From NCBI GenBank assembly GCA_021776685.1, contig JAJFFJ010000010.1, forward strand, positions 1-37,346: 37,346 nt of DNA. Direction: 5' to 3'. The position numbers were made by a program, and so were the translations under genes. The stretch comes from Alphaproteobacteria bacterium (GTDB taxonomy: Bacteria > Pseudomonadota > Alphaproteobacteria > Bin65). Under the pieces are notes generated by a model. The model was not told the DNA's origin, made no database searches, and saw only the letters and a program-made list of their open reading frames with translations. The first letter of the stretch is position 1. Each line of letters begins with the position of its first letter. Of the stretch, positions 7,777 to 13,350 are shown piece by piece.

Positions 7777-9687
7777 ATGGCGCTGGCGATCGATACCTTC
7801 AACAATGCGACCGGGGGGCAGGCCTTTTTCAAGGCAATTGGCCACCCGGCGGCGGCCCCGCGCGCCGATGCATTGATCGCACGGCTTGCCGGCAGCGGGC
7901 CCGTCGCCATCTACGATCCCAACGGTCTGGCCGCAGCTTTCAACGAGATCCACTCACTTGACCGGTTGGATATCGCCGGTGTGTTTGTTCAGGCCCTGGA
8001 AGATCTGGGCGCCACCCGCCTGGGCCATCAGGTGTTGCCTGTGACCGATCTTGCCGGATGCCCGGCGGCAACTGTCCTGATCGTCGCTTTCGACAGCGAG
8101 CGTCTGACGGCCCATGTCCGCCATCTGCTGCCGGATGGCGCAGAGGTGGTCAGCCTGGACGAAATGTGTCTGCCGGACAGCTTCCTGACAAATCCGGGTC
8201 GCTACCTGGATCCGCTTAATTTCGCGACCAACTTTGCCTTCTTCCGCGACCAGGACGGCCACCGCACGACGGTGATGACTGCCAACTATTGGGTTGGCTA
8301 TGGCGCAAAGAACATCCGGCTGTGGTGTCGGCTAATCGGAGAAAATGGCGACACCCTGGCCGAATGGGAGGACGCGCTGGCCGATGCTGTCTGTGGCGTG
8401 CGCATCGACAGCCGCGACGTGCGCAAGCGGTTCGCCCTGGATGACTTCTGCGGCCAGCTCTTCATCCACGCCATCGGCGTCCACGGCCACGACGTCGTCA
8501 AATATGCCCTCGACACATGGGGCGACACGGCGGACCGGCTCTCCTGCACCCACGACGCCAATGCCTGGCCATCAGACCTGTATGCCGGATTGCCGGCCCC
8601 ACAGGACGGTGAGGACGTGTTCCTCTGGGTGCAGAACAGCCACCCCTGCCCCATTCCGGCGCGAGGCGTAGGACTAAACCTCATGGGCAGGGAAGAGGTC
8701 ACGTGGCTCGACCGAGAGATCCCGCCCTTCGGCACCTATGCCCTGAACACCCGTGAATTGCTGCCCGACGCGGCCTGGCCGGCGCAAATCGAGGTTCAGG
8801 CGGGCAAATACTTCGTTCGCCCGCGCTATGAAATTGACGGCCCGTCCGGACGCCGGCGCATTGCCCATGTGAATGTGGAGCGTGCCGACCTTCGCGCCGA
8901 TCCGAAGATCCCCGAATTGTCGAACCTTTTGGGCAAGGGATATGTGCTGCCCGCCCCGGTGCTGCCGCCGGACCGGTTTTCCAGTGCCATGCTGCCGACA
9001 CCGATGGCCACGTGCCAGACCACGCTTCCTGTCGCCCTGCGGGTCTATGACGCCGCCGGGAAAGAGGCGCATGTGCACCGTTTCGGCTGCCTGGGCCGCA
9101 GCGACTCTGCGTGGCTTTCGCTCGATGGCGCATTGGCGGCCAATGGCGGCCTGCCCAGTGGATCCGGGCACATGGAACTGGTGTATGATTTTGCGGACGG
9201 TGGCGAGGCCGACGGCTGGCTTCACGCCATCTTCCGATATGAGGATCGTGGCAGCGGTCATATGGCCGAGACCAGCTTTGGCGCCCATGTCTTCAACACG
9301 GCCCTGACCTACAACCGCGAACCGCAAAGCTATGCCGGCCCGGCCCCCGGCCTGTCGACGCGCCTGTTCCTGCGATTGGGCGCGCCGCCAATGGATACCA
9401 TGTGCCACCTGATCTACAGCGTCGCCACCGAGTGGCACGCGCACAGCGACACCAGCCTGACCCTGCATTCCGGCGCCGGCGACGAGGTCGCCTCAGAGCA
9501 GGTCAAGATCGCTGCAAACGGCTCACTCCACTGGCGGGTCGGCGACGTATTCGGGCTAGACCGGGTCGCCGACGCCGGGCCTGGCGCCTATGTGGTGGTG
9601 CGCGATACCACCTGCCGCCTCTTTGGCTATCACGGTCTGTTGGGCGGTGATGGGGCCTTCAGCTTCGATCACATGTTCGGTTTCTAA
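7777..9687 (+). CDS. Uncharacterised 636-residue protein with Rossmann-like N-terminal part
   Basis: I do not recognise a characterised family. Residues about 35-130 (GPVAIYDPNGLAAAFNEI ... GVFVQALEDLG ... AATVLIVAFDSERLTAHVRHLLP) look like a Rossmann-type nucleotide or sugar-nucleotide sensor fold. The rest is rich in Trp, Gly, His and short beta-type segments (NYWVGYGAKNIRLWCRL, FLWVQNSHPCPIPA, LRVYDAAGKEAHVHRFGCLG), suggesting one or two beta-sandwich domains. There is no signal peptide or membrane helix, so it is probably cytosolic. Base composition matches its neighbours. It follows the 2OG oxygenase by 73 bases on the same strand, which suggests a joint pathway with the oxygenase and the ELM1-like protein. 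Real coding is supported by length, composition and sustained frame. Confidence 0.75.
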   Translation: MALAIDTFNNATGGQAFFKAIGHPAAAPRADALIARLAGSGPVAIYDPNGLAAAFNEIHSLDRLDIAGVFVQALEDLGATRLGHQVLPVTDLAGCPAATVLIVAFDSERLTAHVRHLLPDGAEVVSLDEMCLPDSFLTNPGRYLDPLNFATNFAFFRDQDGHRTTVMTANYWVGYGAKNIRLWCRLIGENGDTLAEWEDALADAVCGVRIDSRDVRKRFALDDFCGQLFIHAIGVHGHDVVKYALDTWGDTADRLSCTHDANAWPSDLYAGLPAPQDGEDVFLWVQNSHPCPIPARGVGLNLMGREEVTWLDREIPPFGTYALNTRELLPDAAWPAQIEVQAGKYFVRPRYEIDGPSGRRRIAHVNVERADLRADPKIPELSNLLGKGYVLPAPVLPPDRFSSAMLPTPMATCQTTLPVALRVYDAAGKEAHVHRFGCLGRSDSAWLSLDGALAANGGLPSGSGHMELVYDFADGGEADGWLHAIFRYEDRGSGHMAETSFGAHVFNTALTYNREPQSYAGPAPGLSTRLFLRLGAPPMDTMCHLIYSVATEWHAHSDTSLTLHSGAGDEVASEQVKIAANGSLHWRVGDVFGLDRVADAGPGAYVVVRDTTCRLFGYHGLLGGDGAFSFDHMFGF

Positions 9688-9831
9688 GCGCCAAAATACA
9701 CAGGTATAGCCATGCATCACTTGCATAGGCAGCCTGGGCGACCTAATTAGGGTGATGCCGCTGGCGCCGGGGCGATCATCTCGGTCCCGCCATGCGCAAT
9801 TTCTCAGGTTTTGCAGCAGGAATTGGCCGAA

Positions 9832-10800
9832 ATGCCCGACACTCACCACGACAAGGTTCTTATCATCGGTTCCGGCCCAGCCGGCTATACCGCCGCCATC
9901 TATGCAGCCCGCGCAGCGCTGGCGCCCCGCGTGGTGGCGGGAATGGAACCCGGCGGCCAGCTCACAATCACCACCGATGTGGAGAACTATCCTGGCTTTG
10001 CTGATGTAATCCAGGGCCCCTGGTTGATGGAACAGATGCAGGCCCAGGCGGAAAGTGTGGGCACGACCCTGACCCACGACCTGATCGTCGATGTGGACTT
10101 CAGCGACCGCCCCTTTCGCTGCACCGGCGACGGCGGCGACACCTATCTGGCGGATACCGTCATCATCACGACAGGCGCGCAGGCCCGCTGGCTCGGTCTG
10201 CCCACCGAAGAGAAATTCATGGGGTTTGGCGTCTCTGCCTGTGCGACCTGCGACGGCTTCTTCTACCGGGAAAAGGAAGTGATCGTGGTCGGCGGCGGCA
10301 ATACAGCCGTGGAGGAGGCGATCTATCTGACAAACCATGCCTCCAGGGTTTACCTGGTCCACCGGCGCGAGGAACTTCGGGCCGAGAAAATCCTGCAGGA
10401 ACGTCTGTTCAAAAACCCCAAGATCGAAATGGTCTGGAACAATGAGCTTGCGGAAGTTACCGGCGATGAGGACCCGATTGGCGTTACGGGCGCAAAGCTG
10501 CGCAATACTCAGACCGGTGAGGTGACCGAACGCACCATCGACGGCGTGTTCGTCGCCATCGGCCACGATCCGGCAACGTCGGTCTTCAAGGACAAGATCG
10601 CCATGGACGACGAGGGCTATATTGTCGTCGAGCCAGGCACCACCCGGACAAATATTCCAGGTGTGTTCGCCGCTGGCGACGTTATCGACAAGACTTATCG
10701 CCAGGCGGTCACCGCGGCCGGCCTGGGTTGCATGGCGGCACTAGACGCCGAGAAATACCTCGCGGAAATGGAAGATCAGCCCCGTGTTGCGGCAGAGTAA
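9832..10800 (+). CDS. trxB: Thioredoxin-disulfide reductase
   Basis: A 322-residue flavoprotein that transfers electrons from NADPH via FAD to thioredoxin. FAD-binding GSGPAG is at 13-18, followed by MEPGGQLTITTDVENYPGF. The redox pair is Cys137-Ala-Thr-Cys140 followed by DGFFY, and the NADPH-binding VVGGGNTAVEEA is near 152. GVFAAGDVIDKTYRQAVTAAGLGCMAA closes the FAD domain. Length is normal for the low-Mr enzyme. The ATG at 9832 (MPDTHHDKV) is preceded by AGGAA; an in-frame TTG at 9811 is less likely. The last 17 bases overlap the downstream LysR gene, so the two are co-transcribed. No strong promoter is seen in 9688-9831. Confidence 0.97.
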   Translation: MPDTHHDKVLIIGSGPAGYTAAIYAARAALAPRVVAGMEPGGQLTITTDVENYPGFADVIQGPWLMEQMQAQAESVGTTLTHDLIVDVDFSDRPFRCTGDGGDTYLADTVIITTGAQARWLGLPTEEKFMGFGVSACATCDGFFYREKEVIVVGGGNTAVEEAIYLTNHASRVYLVHRREELRAEKILQERLFKNPKIEMVWNNELAEVTGDEDPIGVTGAKLRNTQTGEVTERTIDGVFVAIGHDPATSVFKDKIAMDDEGYIVVEPGTTRTNIPGVFAAGDVIDKTYRQAVTAAGLGCMAALDAEKYLAEMEDQPRVAAE

Positions 10801-11746
10801 TACGGCGGTACAGCCGCCGCGGGAAACCACGGCGTCTCACGCCAACATCAGTGGTGCCGTCCAGGACTGGGACAAGCTGCGGATTTTCAGCGCTGTGGCC
10901 GACGCGGGCAGTTTCACCCATGCGGGCGATGTGTTGAGGCTGAGCCAGTCGGCGATCAGCCGTCAGATCAGCGCGCTCGAGGAAAGCCTCAACACGTCTC
11001 TGTTCCACCGGCATGCACGGGGACTTGTCCTGACGGAACAGGGCGAGGTGCTCTACCGGTCGGTTCGGGACATGATCCAGAATCTCAACGCGGCTGAGTC
11101 ACTGATCGCGGAAACCAAAGAGCGGCCCGAGGGGCAGCTTCGCATTACCACCACCACTGGCCTTGGCTCCACATGGCTGGCGCCGCGGATGAACGAGTTC
11201 ATCGAGCTCTATCCCGGCATCCAGGTGAGCCTGCTGATCTCGGACAGCGATTTGGATCTTACCTTGCGTGAGGCGGATGTCGCGATCCGGCTGACCGAAC
11301 CGACCCAGCCCGATTTGGTGCGACGTCAACTGATGAAGATTCACACCCACGTGTACGCGTCGCCCGACTATCTGAAGCACAATGGAATCCCAAAGACCCC
11401 GGATGAGCTGGGTGAGCATCGAATTATCGCGTTCGCGGAAGAAAAGATGCCGCCGGCCTTCGACAACATGAACTGGATTCTGGACGCGCTGCCCACCACG
11501 CGCTTGTCGCCGCGCCTGTCTGTGAACAGCGTCTACGGCATATTTCGGGCCGTGCGCAGTGGCATTGGCCTCGCGGCATTGCCTGATTATATGACTGCGG
11601 ATACGGACCTGGTGCGCGTCCTGCCCGAGTTGGAAGGACCGGAACGGAGCTCCTATTTCGTCTATCCAGAAGCGCTCAGGAAGTCCGCAAGGGTCACCGC
11701 CTTCCGCGAGTTCCTGTTGAAAAAGATTCCAGAGACAACTTTCTAG
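10784..11746 (+). CDS. lsrB: LysR family regulator, LsrB/VtlR type
   Basis: A 320-residue LysR regulator starting at GTG 10784, inside the trxB end. After a 28-residue leader comes DWDKLRIFSAVADAGSFTHAGDVLRLSQSAISRQ, then FHRHARGLVLTEQGE. This HTH resembles the LsrB/VtlR branch of alphaproteobacteria more than generic LysR proteins. The rest is the substrate-binding domain (QLRITTTTGLGSTWLAPRMNEFIELYPGIQVSL). In rhizobia lsrB lies next to trxB, controls redox and membrane functions and is adjacent to AbcR small RNAs; in Brucella VtlR activates AbcR2. That is recalled knowledge. Here a candidate small RNA follows directly at 11885-12028, which supports the subfamily call. GGAAG lies 9 bases before the GTG. 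Confidence 0.85.
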   Translation: MLRQSNTAVQPPRETTASHANISGAVQDWDKLRIFSAVADAGSFTHAGDVLRLSQSAISRQISALEESLNTSLFHRHARGLVLTEQGEVLYRSVRDMIQNLNAAESLIAETKERPEGQLRITTTTGLGSTWLAPRMNEFIELYPGIQVSLLISDSDLDLTLREADVAIRLTEPTQPDLVRRQLMKIHTHVYASPDYLKHNGIPKTPDELGEHRIIAFAEEKMPPAFDNMNWILDALPTTRLSPRLSVNSVYGIFRAVRSGIGLAALPDYMTADTDLVRVLPELEGPERSSYFVYPEALRKSARVTAFREFLLKKIPETTF

Positions 11747-11884
11747 CGCACAAAACTCCAGCAAAACCGGGTAATTCATCCGATGTCTTTTCGAGTCATG
11801 CGTTGATCGCATGGGTTGTTTGTAAAGACCGGCCTAGAGACCCGCGCCTGTCTATACATATTAACCCTTAGGTATGCTGCGCCG

Positions 11885-12028
11885 CACGATGCGCGGAGCT
11901 GCCCCAATTGGCTGGATTGACCAACCGGTTGGAAGGGACCGCCCCTACGGGCGAGCCCTACGTCCTCCCAGACGTGAAGCCTCCCTGTTCCTTAAGCCCC
12001 GGGACCTTTCGGTTCCGGGGTTTTTTTT
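11885..12028 (+). ncRNA. Candidate trans-acting small RNA, AbcR-like, downstream of the lsrB-type gene
   Basis: No protein frame explains this interval, yet it carries ordered RNA structure. There is a palindrome CCAACCGGTTGG, then a hairpin with 5-bp stem CGCCC/GGGCG (11940-11953). Next is a hairpin ACGTC-CTCCCA-GACGT (11960-11975) whose loop is an anti-Shine-Dalgarno sequence. An unpaired second CCTCCC follows at 11980-11985, then a strong terminator at 11997-12028. Exposed CUCCC motifs that pair with ribosome binding sites of ABC-transporter mRNAs are the hallmark of AbcR (alpha-r15) RNAs, which sit beside lsrB in rhizobia. The next gene (msrP) is on the opposite strand, so this is not a leader. 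The 5' end is a guess from -10-like TATGCT (11873-11878); an alternative is TATACA (11853-11858). Confidence 0.55.
11997..12028 (+). terminator. Strong intrinsic terminator of the candidate small RNA
   Basis: CCCCGGGACC, loop TTTC and GGTTCCGGGG form a 10-bp stem (one G-T pair) followed directly by eight T residues. It is the strongest plus-strand terminator in the window and lies 250 bases beyond the LysR stop codon, far from any other plus-strand gene. Confidence 0.9.
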
Positions 12029-12205
12029 GGCTGCCGGCCTGTGACGGAGATCACAGCATCATTTATGGAAATCGGCGATACAGGGGTACCAGCCGGCTGT
12101 CCGGCAGGTAGGCAAACATCGACCGGGGTCCTGTCGCTCCAAAACCTGTCGCCCGCGTCAATGCGGGCGCCCCCCGGCAGACAATGCCGAACATGTGTCG
12201 CAAAT
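12029..12205. other. Structured intergenic stretch, possible second small RNA
   Basis: No convincing protein gene is visible. After the CRP-type site (12040-12055) the plus strand has a weak -10-like GATACA at 12077-12082, at the position expected for a class II CRP promoter. Hairpins follow: GCCGG-CTGT-CCGGC and GCCCGC-GTCAAT-GCGGGC. CCTGTCGC occurs twice (12130-12137 and 12145-12152). With the terminator at 12206-12243 this could be a transcript of about 155 bases, in tandem with the first candidate RNA. Support is structural only. Confidence 0.3.
12040..12055. promoter_or_regulatory. CRP/FNR-type binding site
   Basis: TGTGACGGAGATCACA fits the TGTGA-N6-TCACA consensus of cAMP receptor proteins exactly. 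It lies between two terminators, so its likely target is a non-coding transcript on the plus strand or a read-through product. Which CRP/FNR homologue binds it cannot be told. Confidence 0.5.
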
Positions 12206-12243
12206 GAAAACGGGGCGTGATCATCAGATCGCGCCCCGTTTTC
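12206..12243. terminator. Bidirectional terminator downstream of msrP
   Basis: GAAAACGGGGCG and CGCCCCGTTTTC form a 12-bp perfect stem, with an internal GATC/GATC pairing in the loop. The A/T flanks give a T-run on either strand. It lies 21 bases past the msrP stop on the minus strand and can also stop plus-strand transcription from 11885 onward. Confidence 0.85.
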
Positions 12244-12264
12244 TGTTTGATGCCGGCGGAGTAT

Positions 12265-13248
12265 TTACCGGTAAAGCTGCTCGCCCTTTATCCCGGCGTA
12301 GAGATCACCGATGAACTCCTTGTAACCGTTGAAGAGCTGGGTCGGCACAACCTCGTCCGTGCCCAGGACGCGTTCCCGCGCCTGGCTCCACCGGGGATGG
12401 TCCACCTTGGGATTGACGTTGGCCCAGAAGCCATACTCCCTGGCCTGCAGCTTCTGCCAGAAGGACACCGGGCGTTTGTCGGTGAAGGTAAACCGCACCA
12501 GCGACTTGGCTTGTTTGAAGCCGAATTTCCACGGCGTCGACAACCGCAGCGGCGCGCCATTCTGGGCGCCCAAGGGCTTGCCGTAGATGCCGGTCGCAAG
12601 GAAGGCCAGCTCATGGGTGGCCTCAGCCATGGTCAGCCCCTCGGTATAGGGCCACGGGAACCAGCTCTGCCGCTGACCCGAAGCAACCTTGGGGTTCATG
12701 AAGGTCTGCATCTGCACATATTTTGCGCCAGACAAGGGCTTGGCCAACTCCACCAGGGCCTTCAGGGGGAAGCCGGTCCAGGGCACCACCATTGACCAGG
12801 CTTCGACACAACGAAGACCATAGATGCGCTCTTCCAACGGCATCTTACGGATCAGCGCATCGATATCGATGGTGGTTTTCTTCTCCACCATGCCATCGAA
12901 GGTGACCGTCCAGGGCCGGAGCGGCAGGCGTTGCGCAGCCCGGTAGATCCGCTTGTGCGAGCCAAACTCATAAAAGTTGTTGTAGGTCAGCGCAGATTTG
13001 GGATCGGTCAGCTTACGCAGCGGCTTGTAGCGCAGATTGCGCTTTGCCGGATAAAGATCCAGGGTCGGATCCTTGAATTCCGCGGCCAACGCCTCTTCCA
13101 TGGTTGCGCCCAACAACGCCGGCGGCAATCCCGCAATGATTGACCCGGCTGCAACCCCCTTCATGAGGTTGCGGCGGTCGTTAAAAACCTGTTCTGGCGT
13201 CACCGATTGTTCTGGCCGTTCCCAGCCGCGGTTGCGCTTGATCAACAT
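12265..13248 (-). CDS. msrP: Protein-methionine-sulfoxide reductase catalytic subunit MsrP (YedY)
   Basis: A 327-residue periplasmic molybdopterin enzyme that repairs oxidised methionine in exported proteins. The twin-arginine motif is DRRNLMKG (24-31), followed by the hydrophobic stretch VAAGSIIAGLPPALLGA. TYNNFYEFG (88-96) and GLRCVEAWSMVVPW, with Cys147 as the molybdenum ligand, are diagnostic. The C-terminal FNGYKEFIGDLYAGIKGEQLYR matches the family. The ATG at 13248 follows GGAGG; an upstream in-frame start would add 20 unconserved residues. The usual haem membrane partner msrQ is not next to it: downstream lies the terminator, upstream an MFS gene. Confidence 0.95.
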   Translation of the reverse strand: MLIKRNRGWERPEQSVTPEQVFNDRRNLMKGVAAGSIIAGLPPALLGATMEEALAAEFKDPTLDLYPAKRNLRYKPLRKLTDPKSALTYNNFYEFGSHKRIYRAAQRLPLRPWTVTFDGMVEKKTTIDIDALIRKMPLEERIYGLRCVEAWSMVVPWTGFPLKALVELAKPLSGAKYVQMQTFMNPKVASGQRQSWFPWPYTEGLTMAEATHELAFLATGIYGKPLGAQNGAPLRLSTPWKFGFKQAKSLVRFTFTDKRPVSFWQKLQAREYGFWANVNPKVDHPRWSQARERVLGTDEVVPTQLFNGYKEFIGDLYAGIKGEQLYR

Positions 13249-13350
13249 GGATGCCTCCGACGATAGTTGCCCCTGGCGCGAACGACCAACCAAGCCGTCC
13301 CCTGCCAATATTGTGTGCGAAAACTGGGCAGATTTGCCCTCTCATGCGAA

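Follow-up and report, generated by a model that had tools for sequence, protein, structure and literature searches.

The window analysed here, a stretch of DNA of 37,346 nucleotides, carries behind an LsrB/VtlR-type LysR regulator gene what looks like a small-RNA gene on the plus strand (11864-12028; transcription predicted). Computation revealed RNA-like conservation with covariation, synteny with the regulator gene, a palindromic box in front of the RNA and an enrichment of complementary sites before genes for solute-binding proteins. As judged from sequence, the family is strongly conserved, reaches no Rfam 15 cut-off, and is most likely LsrB-activated and AbcR-like in its action on uptake genes. 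We give a probability of about three in four to the reading that this is an LsrB-activated RNA of an unnamed, class-wide family, predicted to repress solute-binding-protein mRNAs in the manner of AbcR.

According to this reading, the LsrB-type LysR protein encoded upstream would bind an ATGC-N7-GCAT box some 60 nt ahead of the start, activating transcription of an RNA of about 165 nt that ends at a Rho-independent terminator. Two anti-Shine-Dalgarno motifs of the RNA would be available for pairing with (AA)CAGGGAGG ribosome-binding sites: CUCCCA, in the loop of a hairpin, and GCCUCCCUG, in the linker that precedes the terminator. The RNA would chiefly target mRNAs that encode periplasmic solute-binding proteins of the branched-chain ABC and TRAP DctP types, along with those of some catabolic enzymes, and the pairing would block translation, presumably with Hfq.

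The locus and the conserved RNA core

The RNA lies in the intergenic interval 11747-12264, which is bounded by the stop of the LysR gene and the end of the convergent msrP (Table 1). The original prediction had placed it directly after an LsrB-type LysR gene, in a layout like the trxB-lsrB-AbcR linkage of rhizobia, with no further gene downstream on its strand. The first part was borne out by the profile matches of the two genes and by the best PDB match of the LysR protein, 9hh1_A (E = 9e-88; runner-up 6e-34). The tool labels 9hh1 'Transcriptional regulator, LysR family', with no more specific name; we infer that it is the A. tumefaciens LsrB entry. With its closest match to an LsrB-type LysR and with trxB adjacent, the protein would be an LsrB/VtlR. 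The second part holds as far as the DNA was read, the next gene being msrP. The trxB gene was listed as a TTG-started ORF, and the ATG at 9832 is its likely start. Upstream of trxB, a 636-aa ORF (7777-9687, plus strand) gave no Pfam match at E <= 1e-3. In 5 of 28 related loci an msrP homologue follows the RNA on the opposite strand, and a second strong hairpin of 17 pairs at 12206-12243 is perhaps the terminator of the convergent msrP.

Table 1. Positions of the predicted RNA, its elements and the neighbouring genes in the window.
Feature	Position	Strand	Basis and remarks
trxB, thioredoxin-disulfide reductase	9811..10800	+	TIGR01292, 411 bits (cut-off 343)
LsrB/VtlR-type LysR regulator gene, 320 aa as listed	10784..11746	+	PF00126, PF03466
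Palindromic LTTR box ATGC-N7-GCAT (T-N11-A), predicted LsrB site	11798..11812	+	Box survey; consensus from part of PMC8844928
-10-like element TATACA	11853..11858	+	TAT/TAA survey; CATATT overlaps at 11857-11862; good -35 absent
Predicted small RNA, ~165 nt	11864..12028	+	5' end inferred from the -10-like element; R1 match to the core
Motif hairpin ACGUC-CUCCCA-GACGU	11960..11975	+	Sequence, R1 model; loop M1 = CUCCCA, 11965-11970
Linker with second anti-Shine-Dalgarno motif GCCUCCCUG (11979-11987), predicted seed	11976..11993	+	Near-invariant columns, 29 sequences
Rho-independent terminator	11994..12028	+	Core stem 11997-12020, T8 12021-12028
msrP	12265-13308	-	Convergent, next gene after the predicted RNA

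The hairpin loop CTCCCA and the 10-bp terminator stem with eight T residues, both named in the original prediction, are present. The two arms of the stem, CCCCGGGACC and GGTTCCGGGG (11997-12006 and 12011-12020), form 10 pairs, one of them G-T, around a TTTC loop. A terminator scan of 11600-12400 reported this site (13 pairs including flanking A-T), among 6 terminator-like sites on both strands vs 0.7 expected in shuffles. The interval 11885-12028 folds at -67.5 kcal/mol (z = -4.1; none of 200 shuffles equally stable), and z is -4.5 for 11864-12028. CCUCCC, which lies inside the linker at 11980-11985, had been described as exposed; this agrees with the centroid of the longer transcript, where it is unpaired, and less well with the minimum-energy fold of 11885-12028, where part of it is paired.

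A DNA search of 61 genomes gave a match in 27, own genome included, and the RNA core recurs in 28 other loci of the class, nearly unchanged in most. The block UCCCAGACGUGAAGCCUCCCUGU is near-invariant in most of the 29 aligned loci, in contrast to the variable terminator and 5' part; among relatives the loop varies by one base, and terminator length varies as well. On the first alignment (A1), RNAalifold predicted no pairs, probably owing to the unequal terminator lengths and to the extra base in the window-type loop. The covariance model R1 comprises 17 sequences, with the window and the other longer-loop rows left out; alignment A3 likewise holds 17 of the 29, leaving out the window, the other longer-loop rows, L027 and L028. 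R1 matched the window at 11958-12027 with 60.7 bits (E = 9e-23; next best 12 bits), its one match in the own genome. At E <= 1e-3 it also matched 161 of 289 genomes in a sample of the class, which is Alphaproteobacteria as judged from the named loci described below.

In an alignment of 52 distinct rows from named loci, fitted to R1, two-sided changes with pairing kept occurred in all 12 pairs and 98.6% of cells were paired, a result reached by none of 500 shuffles and by no slid control. The MAFFT alignment of 17 was 91.4% paired, and there 5 of the 12 pairs had changes on both sides, including four terminator pairs; for the motif hairpin the counts were 5 of 5 (fitted) vs 1 of 5 (MAFFT). Since the structure was given by hand on A3, both counts lean towards it.

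The association with LsrB was assessed in three sets of loci. In the first 29 loci, a LysR gene stood upstream on the same strand in 23, own locus included, and trxB was present in 20 of the 22 others within the short stretch examined. The LysR proteins beside the same RNA are 51-66% identical to that of the window (n = 21 or 22 loci); their alignment (A2) has 22 rows, L008 being left out on account of an in-frame stop at the start of the matched range. The second set consisted of named loci, the best 80 of 588 from a LysR-profile search of GTDB genomes. R1 matched in 49 of these 80 (44 at >= 28 bits), and all 53 matches lay downstream of the LysR gene on its strand, in genera that include Azospirillum, Thalassospira, Kiloniella, Pelagibius, Minwuia, Niveispirillum, Reyranella, Elioraea and Falsiroseomonas. 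The five loci with the weakest of these matches (L154, L164, L170, L177 and L188; 18-23 bits) look ar15-like or share little beyond the terminator; they are counted in the 49 of 80 and in the covariation set, and are absent from the 73 loci used for the box below.

The third set was the class sample, in which 114 genomes had an R1 match of at least 40 bits and 102 of these also had a listed LsrB place. The RNA lay 144-613 nt downstream of LsrB on the same strand in 81 of the 102 (median 212), and on the opposite strand within 3 kb in none of them. In the 21 genomes without a pair within 1.5 kb, the RNA was 1.5-5.7 kb downstream in 9 and beyond 6 kb or on another contig in 12. The 12 RNA-bearing genomes without a listed LsrB place comprised 8 with a LysR-profile match and 4 without any. 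This count entered 145 of 150 listed LsrB rows, LysR-profile matches having been found in 170 genomes; of the five rows left out, G080 alone had a strong RNA match, on another contig, which turns 81/101 into 81/102. The expectation that the layout would extend to a non-rhizobial lineage was thus confirmed for a large part of the class.

Multiple copies were seen in some genomes. Two to three tandem RNAs follow LsrB in three genomes of family f42 (L090, 1252-1846; L091, 1193-1737; L092, 1527-1806); they are SorX-like or R1-like, the weakest at 13 and 18 bits, and recall tandem abcR1/abcR2. Three genomes (G243, G253 and G213) have five or six R1 matches each over several contigs, and G243 and G253, both small genomes, also have six and seven matches to the LysR profile, which would fit a multiplication of the pair.

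Relation to AbcR and other RNA families

The original prediction had assigned the RNA to AbcR/alpha-r15 (ar15, RF02345) and proposed a covariance-model check, which did not bear it out. The ar15 model gave no match at E <= 10 in 11700-12300 (family cut-off 40 bits), whereas the same tool, as a positive control, reported ar15 above cut-off, at 44.3 bits, in the same slot of Pleomorphomonas (L172). Genome searches with ar15 (own genome 0 of 1, class 0 of 289) had no positive control, the second being run with strict filters, and are not used as evidence. According to the part of PMC5461406 consulted, AbcR RNAs carry CUCCCA in hairpin 1 and GUUCCC between the hairpins. The first motif stands in a hairpin loop of the window's RNA as well; in place of the second is GCCUCCCUG, followed by GUUCCU at 11987-11992, which is close but not identical to GUUCCC and reads GUUCAA in many relatives. 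The slot, downstream of trxB-lsrB/vtlR on the same strand, is that of AbcR. As the ar15 model responds in Pleomorphomonas but not in the window, and as the second motif is replaced, the RNA has the place of AbcR and is similar to it in plan but, by the tests made, is not a member of ar15/AbcR.

Compared with AbcR1/AbcR2 of Rhizobiaceae and Brucellaceae, the RNA is alike in slot, strand, a putative LsrB-type box, CUCCCA loop, a second pyrimidine-rich motif, terminator and (here predicted) solute-binding-protein targets. It is unlike them in that the ar15 model fails, GCCUCCCUG stands for GUUCCC, the hairpins are others, and the genome holds a single R1 match rather than a tandem pair. We considered the possibility that it is nevertheless a true AbcR (ar15) ortholog that has drifted past the Rfam model, with hairpins and second motif replaced. 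This concerns descent and is compatible with the proposed mechanism; we put it at a little under even odds. Slot, strand, regulator and M1 loop are those of AbcR, and ar15 scores fall from 44.3 bits in L172 to 29.7 in L164 and 25.1 in L188, with the Roseibium loop UCCUCCCAG. Both Roseibium loci have a TGC-N7-GCA palindrome 74 nt ahead of the start of ar15, and tandem copies after LsrB are found among R1 RNAs too (L090, L091). Yet with the ar15 model nothing is reported for the window up to E = 10, the Pleomorphomonas ar15 reaches only 13 bits with R1, the full box is absent before that ar15, the window's best sub-threshold Rfam matches are anti-hemB, NsiR1 and suhB/mmgR, and no intermediate sequence was found.

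The ar15-like RNAs after LsrB in Roseibium (L164, L188) score below the Rfam cut-off, and that of Stappia (L154) is not reported by the ar15 model. All three keep CUGUUCCCCUCUGG intact, and the scope of the Rfam ar15 model seems too narrow to cover them.

At the Rfam 15 gathering level, no family was found in the window or at the RNA of the scanned R1-bearing loci L121 and L151. Below that level, the window scored 25.1 bits for anti-hemB (gathering 49.5), 23.9 for suhB/mmgR (cut-off 41; up to 34.1 in L090) and 15.1 for SorX (cut-off 46.6; L110 32.6, L091 38.9), and NsiR1 was also sub-threshold. Because these matches rest on CUCCC plus a terminator and stay below cut-off, the RNA is filed under none of these families. 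SorX (RF02784) and SorY (RF02651) of Rhodobacter share the CCUCCCUGUU linker followed by a terminator, but SorX has a different hairpin before the linker and comes from another locus. The mmgR/suhB consensus (RF00519; in Rfam clan CL00108 with ar15) has CUCCCU, ACUU and a terminator, but its first hairpin differs in sequence, and it is not known to lie beside lsrB. The 3' module of the RNA (CCUCCCU, a short A/C/U-rich stretch, terminator) thus resembles SorX and mmgR/suhB, below cut-off. No family of the NfeR1 type (ar14) matched the window. NfeR1, as described in part of PMC8844928, carries anti-Shine-Dalgarno motifs that act on mRNAs of ABC-transporter components; NfeR1 and other multi-motif RNAs are alike in this to the present RNA, but NfeR1 has three identical motifs. 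In the literature covered, to which most subscription journals did not belong, we found no report of this RNA outside Rhizobiales (see also the parts consulted of PMC7486931, PMC7685610 and PMC3927594).

The palindromic box and proposed control by LsrB

The box in front of the RNA has the T-N11-A form of LysR sites. The LsrB/VtlR consensus of B. abortus and A. tumefaciens is given in part of PMC8844928 as GCAT-N3-TG-N3-T; the window box with the bases that follow it has six of the seven fixed letters, the full palindrome being present. A box with at least 7 of 8 letters was found 118-228 nt before the linker core in 64 of 73 RNA loci (50 perfect), compared with 113 of 2052 same-size windows elsewhere in the same loci. 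Exact GCAT-N3-TG-N3-T occurred in 13 of the 73 loci vs 15 of 1853 windows, and the columns after the box agree with the published LsrB consensus (offset 5, G 0.59; offset 9, T 0.70). In 45 of 64 loci the box is followed by a TAT or TAA that starts at offset 41-48, against a background of 239/3015 (7.9%). These elements suggest a transcript start near 11864-11870. A 5' hairpin, TGYTGC..GCARCA, stands near the predicted start in 22 of 64 RNA loci vs 3 of 2552 windows.

No sigma-70 consensus promoter was found in 11600-12400. Together with the same strand and the short distance to lsrB, this is what one would expect if the RNA had no promoter of its own and were freed by RNase E from the 3' end of an lsrB read-through transcript. 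We regard such a 3'-UTR origin as unlikely, since most loci have the conserved palindrome and the -10-like element ahead of the RNA, 9 genomes have the RNA at a distance of 1.5-5.7 kb from LsrB, and 4 RNA-bearing genomes gave no LsrB match. More improbable still is that the region holds nothing but a terminator and an autoregulatory LysR box controlling lsrB or msrP. Terminator and box are both there and LysR genes are often autoregulated, but the linker core is near-invariant across the class, beyond a terminator's needs, the box, located downstream of lsrB, points to the RNA, and the motif hairpin covaries. A short peptide gene can practically be dismissed: ORFs of 20-67 aa overlap the RNA, among them an ATG ORF of 56 aa (11874-12044) and a TTG ORF of 67 aa (11908-12111) that cross it, but both of the latter read through the terminator, relatives vary by one loop base and in terminator length, and the changes are paired as in RNA, so that the conserved peptide frame named in the original prediction as a competing explanation is not apparent.

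For an RNA activated by LsrB, the signal sensed by the regulator is of interest. In the part of PMC11975290 consulted, LsrB of A. tumefaciens is regarded as a redox switch operating via four cysteines, of which C144 and C273 are conserved among A. tumefaciens, S. meliloti and B. abortus. The window LysR contains no cysteine and thus lacks the redox cysteines of LsrB/VtlR; it has V or A at the 9hh1 cysteine positions of the alignment. A thiol switch within this protein is therefore excluded, and so is its thiol as activator of the RNA. Cysteine is also missing from 13 of the 22 LysR rows of A2 and from the Pleomorphomonas LysR that precedes the ar15 RNA, which is 50% identical to that of the window. 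Among 51 LysR proteins from the 80 named loci, taken over their matched ranges, 33 have no cysteine, 12 have one and 6 have two. The LsrB-type LysR proteins at loci L110-L189 are mostly cysteine-free, which misfits a general thiol-redox role for LsrB.

Predicted targets and what they would mean

The sequence AACAGGGAGG has base complementarity with the linker CCUCCCUGUU. A search of the own genome for the 8-nt site CAGGGAGG at a distance of 2-12 nt ahead of an ATG gave 41 sites, and 4 for the reversed pattern. The 41 sites lead to 31 ORFs of at least 60 aa, 30 of them distinct and all scanned. Nine of the 30 encode solute-binding proteins, 6 DctP (TRAP) and 3 Peripla_BP_6 (branched-chain ABC type); the others comprise housekeeping proteins and catabolic enzymes, for example acyl-CoA ligases, a Rieske oxygenase, a P450 and a luciferase-like monooxygenase. 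DctP genes number 20 in this genome and Peripla_BP_6 genes 18, the latter from 19 matches, two of which are fragments of a single gene. When these 38 genes were taken irrespective of the motif, complementarity to the linker of at least 7 nt before a start was found in 19 of them vs 6 of 112 background ORFs, the latter without the 20 ORFs chosen for the motif. Complementarity to the M1 hairpin was found in 14 of the 38 vs 6 background ORFs, the M1 and M2 scores overlapping in GGGAGG and hence being dependent.

Two other motifs served as controls for Shine-Dalgarno strength. The GAAGGAGG sites precede 11 ORFs, and among the 10 scanned there was no solute-binding protein and one ABC permease. With AGGAGG, 4 of 100 listed sites (124 in total) precede solute-binding-protein genes; most of these sites have no real ORF after them, and the set was used by coordinates only. 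CAG preceded GGAGG in 9 of 23 solute-binding-protein genes vs 0 of 13 others (p 0.009-0.02), in a comparison with 13 background genes and with solute-binding-protein starts chosen for best match.

Across the 61 genomes, AACAGGGAGG-N2-12-ATG occurs 93 times and its reversal 8 times. Solute-binding proteins make up about 19 of 62 ORFs after this pattern, compared with 2 of 47 neighbour ORFs, counted in the families shown (25 of 42). The figure of about 19 is the sum of Peripla_BP_6 (9), SBP_bac_8 (4), NMT1_3 (3), DctP (2) and SBP_bac_5 (1), assumes that each protein falls in one of these families only, and includes three orthologues in one genus. We read 86 of the 93 sites, leaving out four of the own genome and three of G032; of those left out, one overlaps a read site, one is inside an RNA gene on the other strand and one is near that gene. 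They gave 63 ORFs of at least 80 aa, 62 of which were scanned after one repeat was dropped, one being from the own genome. The neighbours numbered 53, with 47 scanned after six that overlapped target ORFs were dropped. The neighbour control was not matched for Shine-Dalgarno strength, and the matched controls are small; since complementarity to CCUCC is common to any strong Shine-Dalgarno sequence, some of the target signal may reflect ribosome-binding strength. The target prediction that had been proposed points to solute-binding proteins in the own genome and in the 61-genome set, but not in the distant, RNA-bearing genome G025, where the 8-nt site preceded none among 10 scanned ORFs and ABC permeases in two (13 ORFs, less two below 100 aa and one repeat).

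The gene livK codes for a branched-chain amino-acid binding protein. Its mRNA is a confirmed target of S. meliloti AbcR1 via the ribosome-binding site, according to part of PMC3712013, so that the function predicted for our RNA is of the same kind, with TRAP targets as a possible extension.

We further suggest, tentatively and at somewhat less than an even chance, that the LysR-RNA pair is an ancient alphaproteobacterial uptake circuit, that the present family is the original one and AbcR a rhizobial replacement or derivative, and that the LsrB signal was originally something other than thiol oxidation, for example a metabolite. The last point is suggested by the small number of related LysR proteins, 6 of 51, that have two cysteines. 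With a thiol switch excluded in the cysteine-free LysR, the question of the LsrB signal becomes directly testable. If these proposals are true, AbcR, known as a host-interaction regulator of rhizobia and Brucella, would represent a single branch of a nutrient-uptake circuit found across the class, and a post-transcriptional control of ABC and TRAP solute-binding proteins would be common to free-living Alphaproteobacteria of sea and soil.
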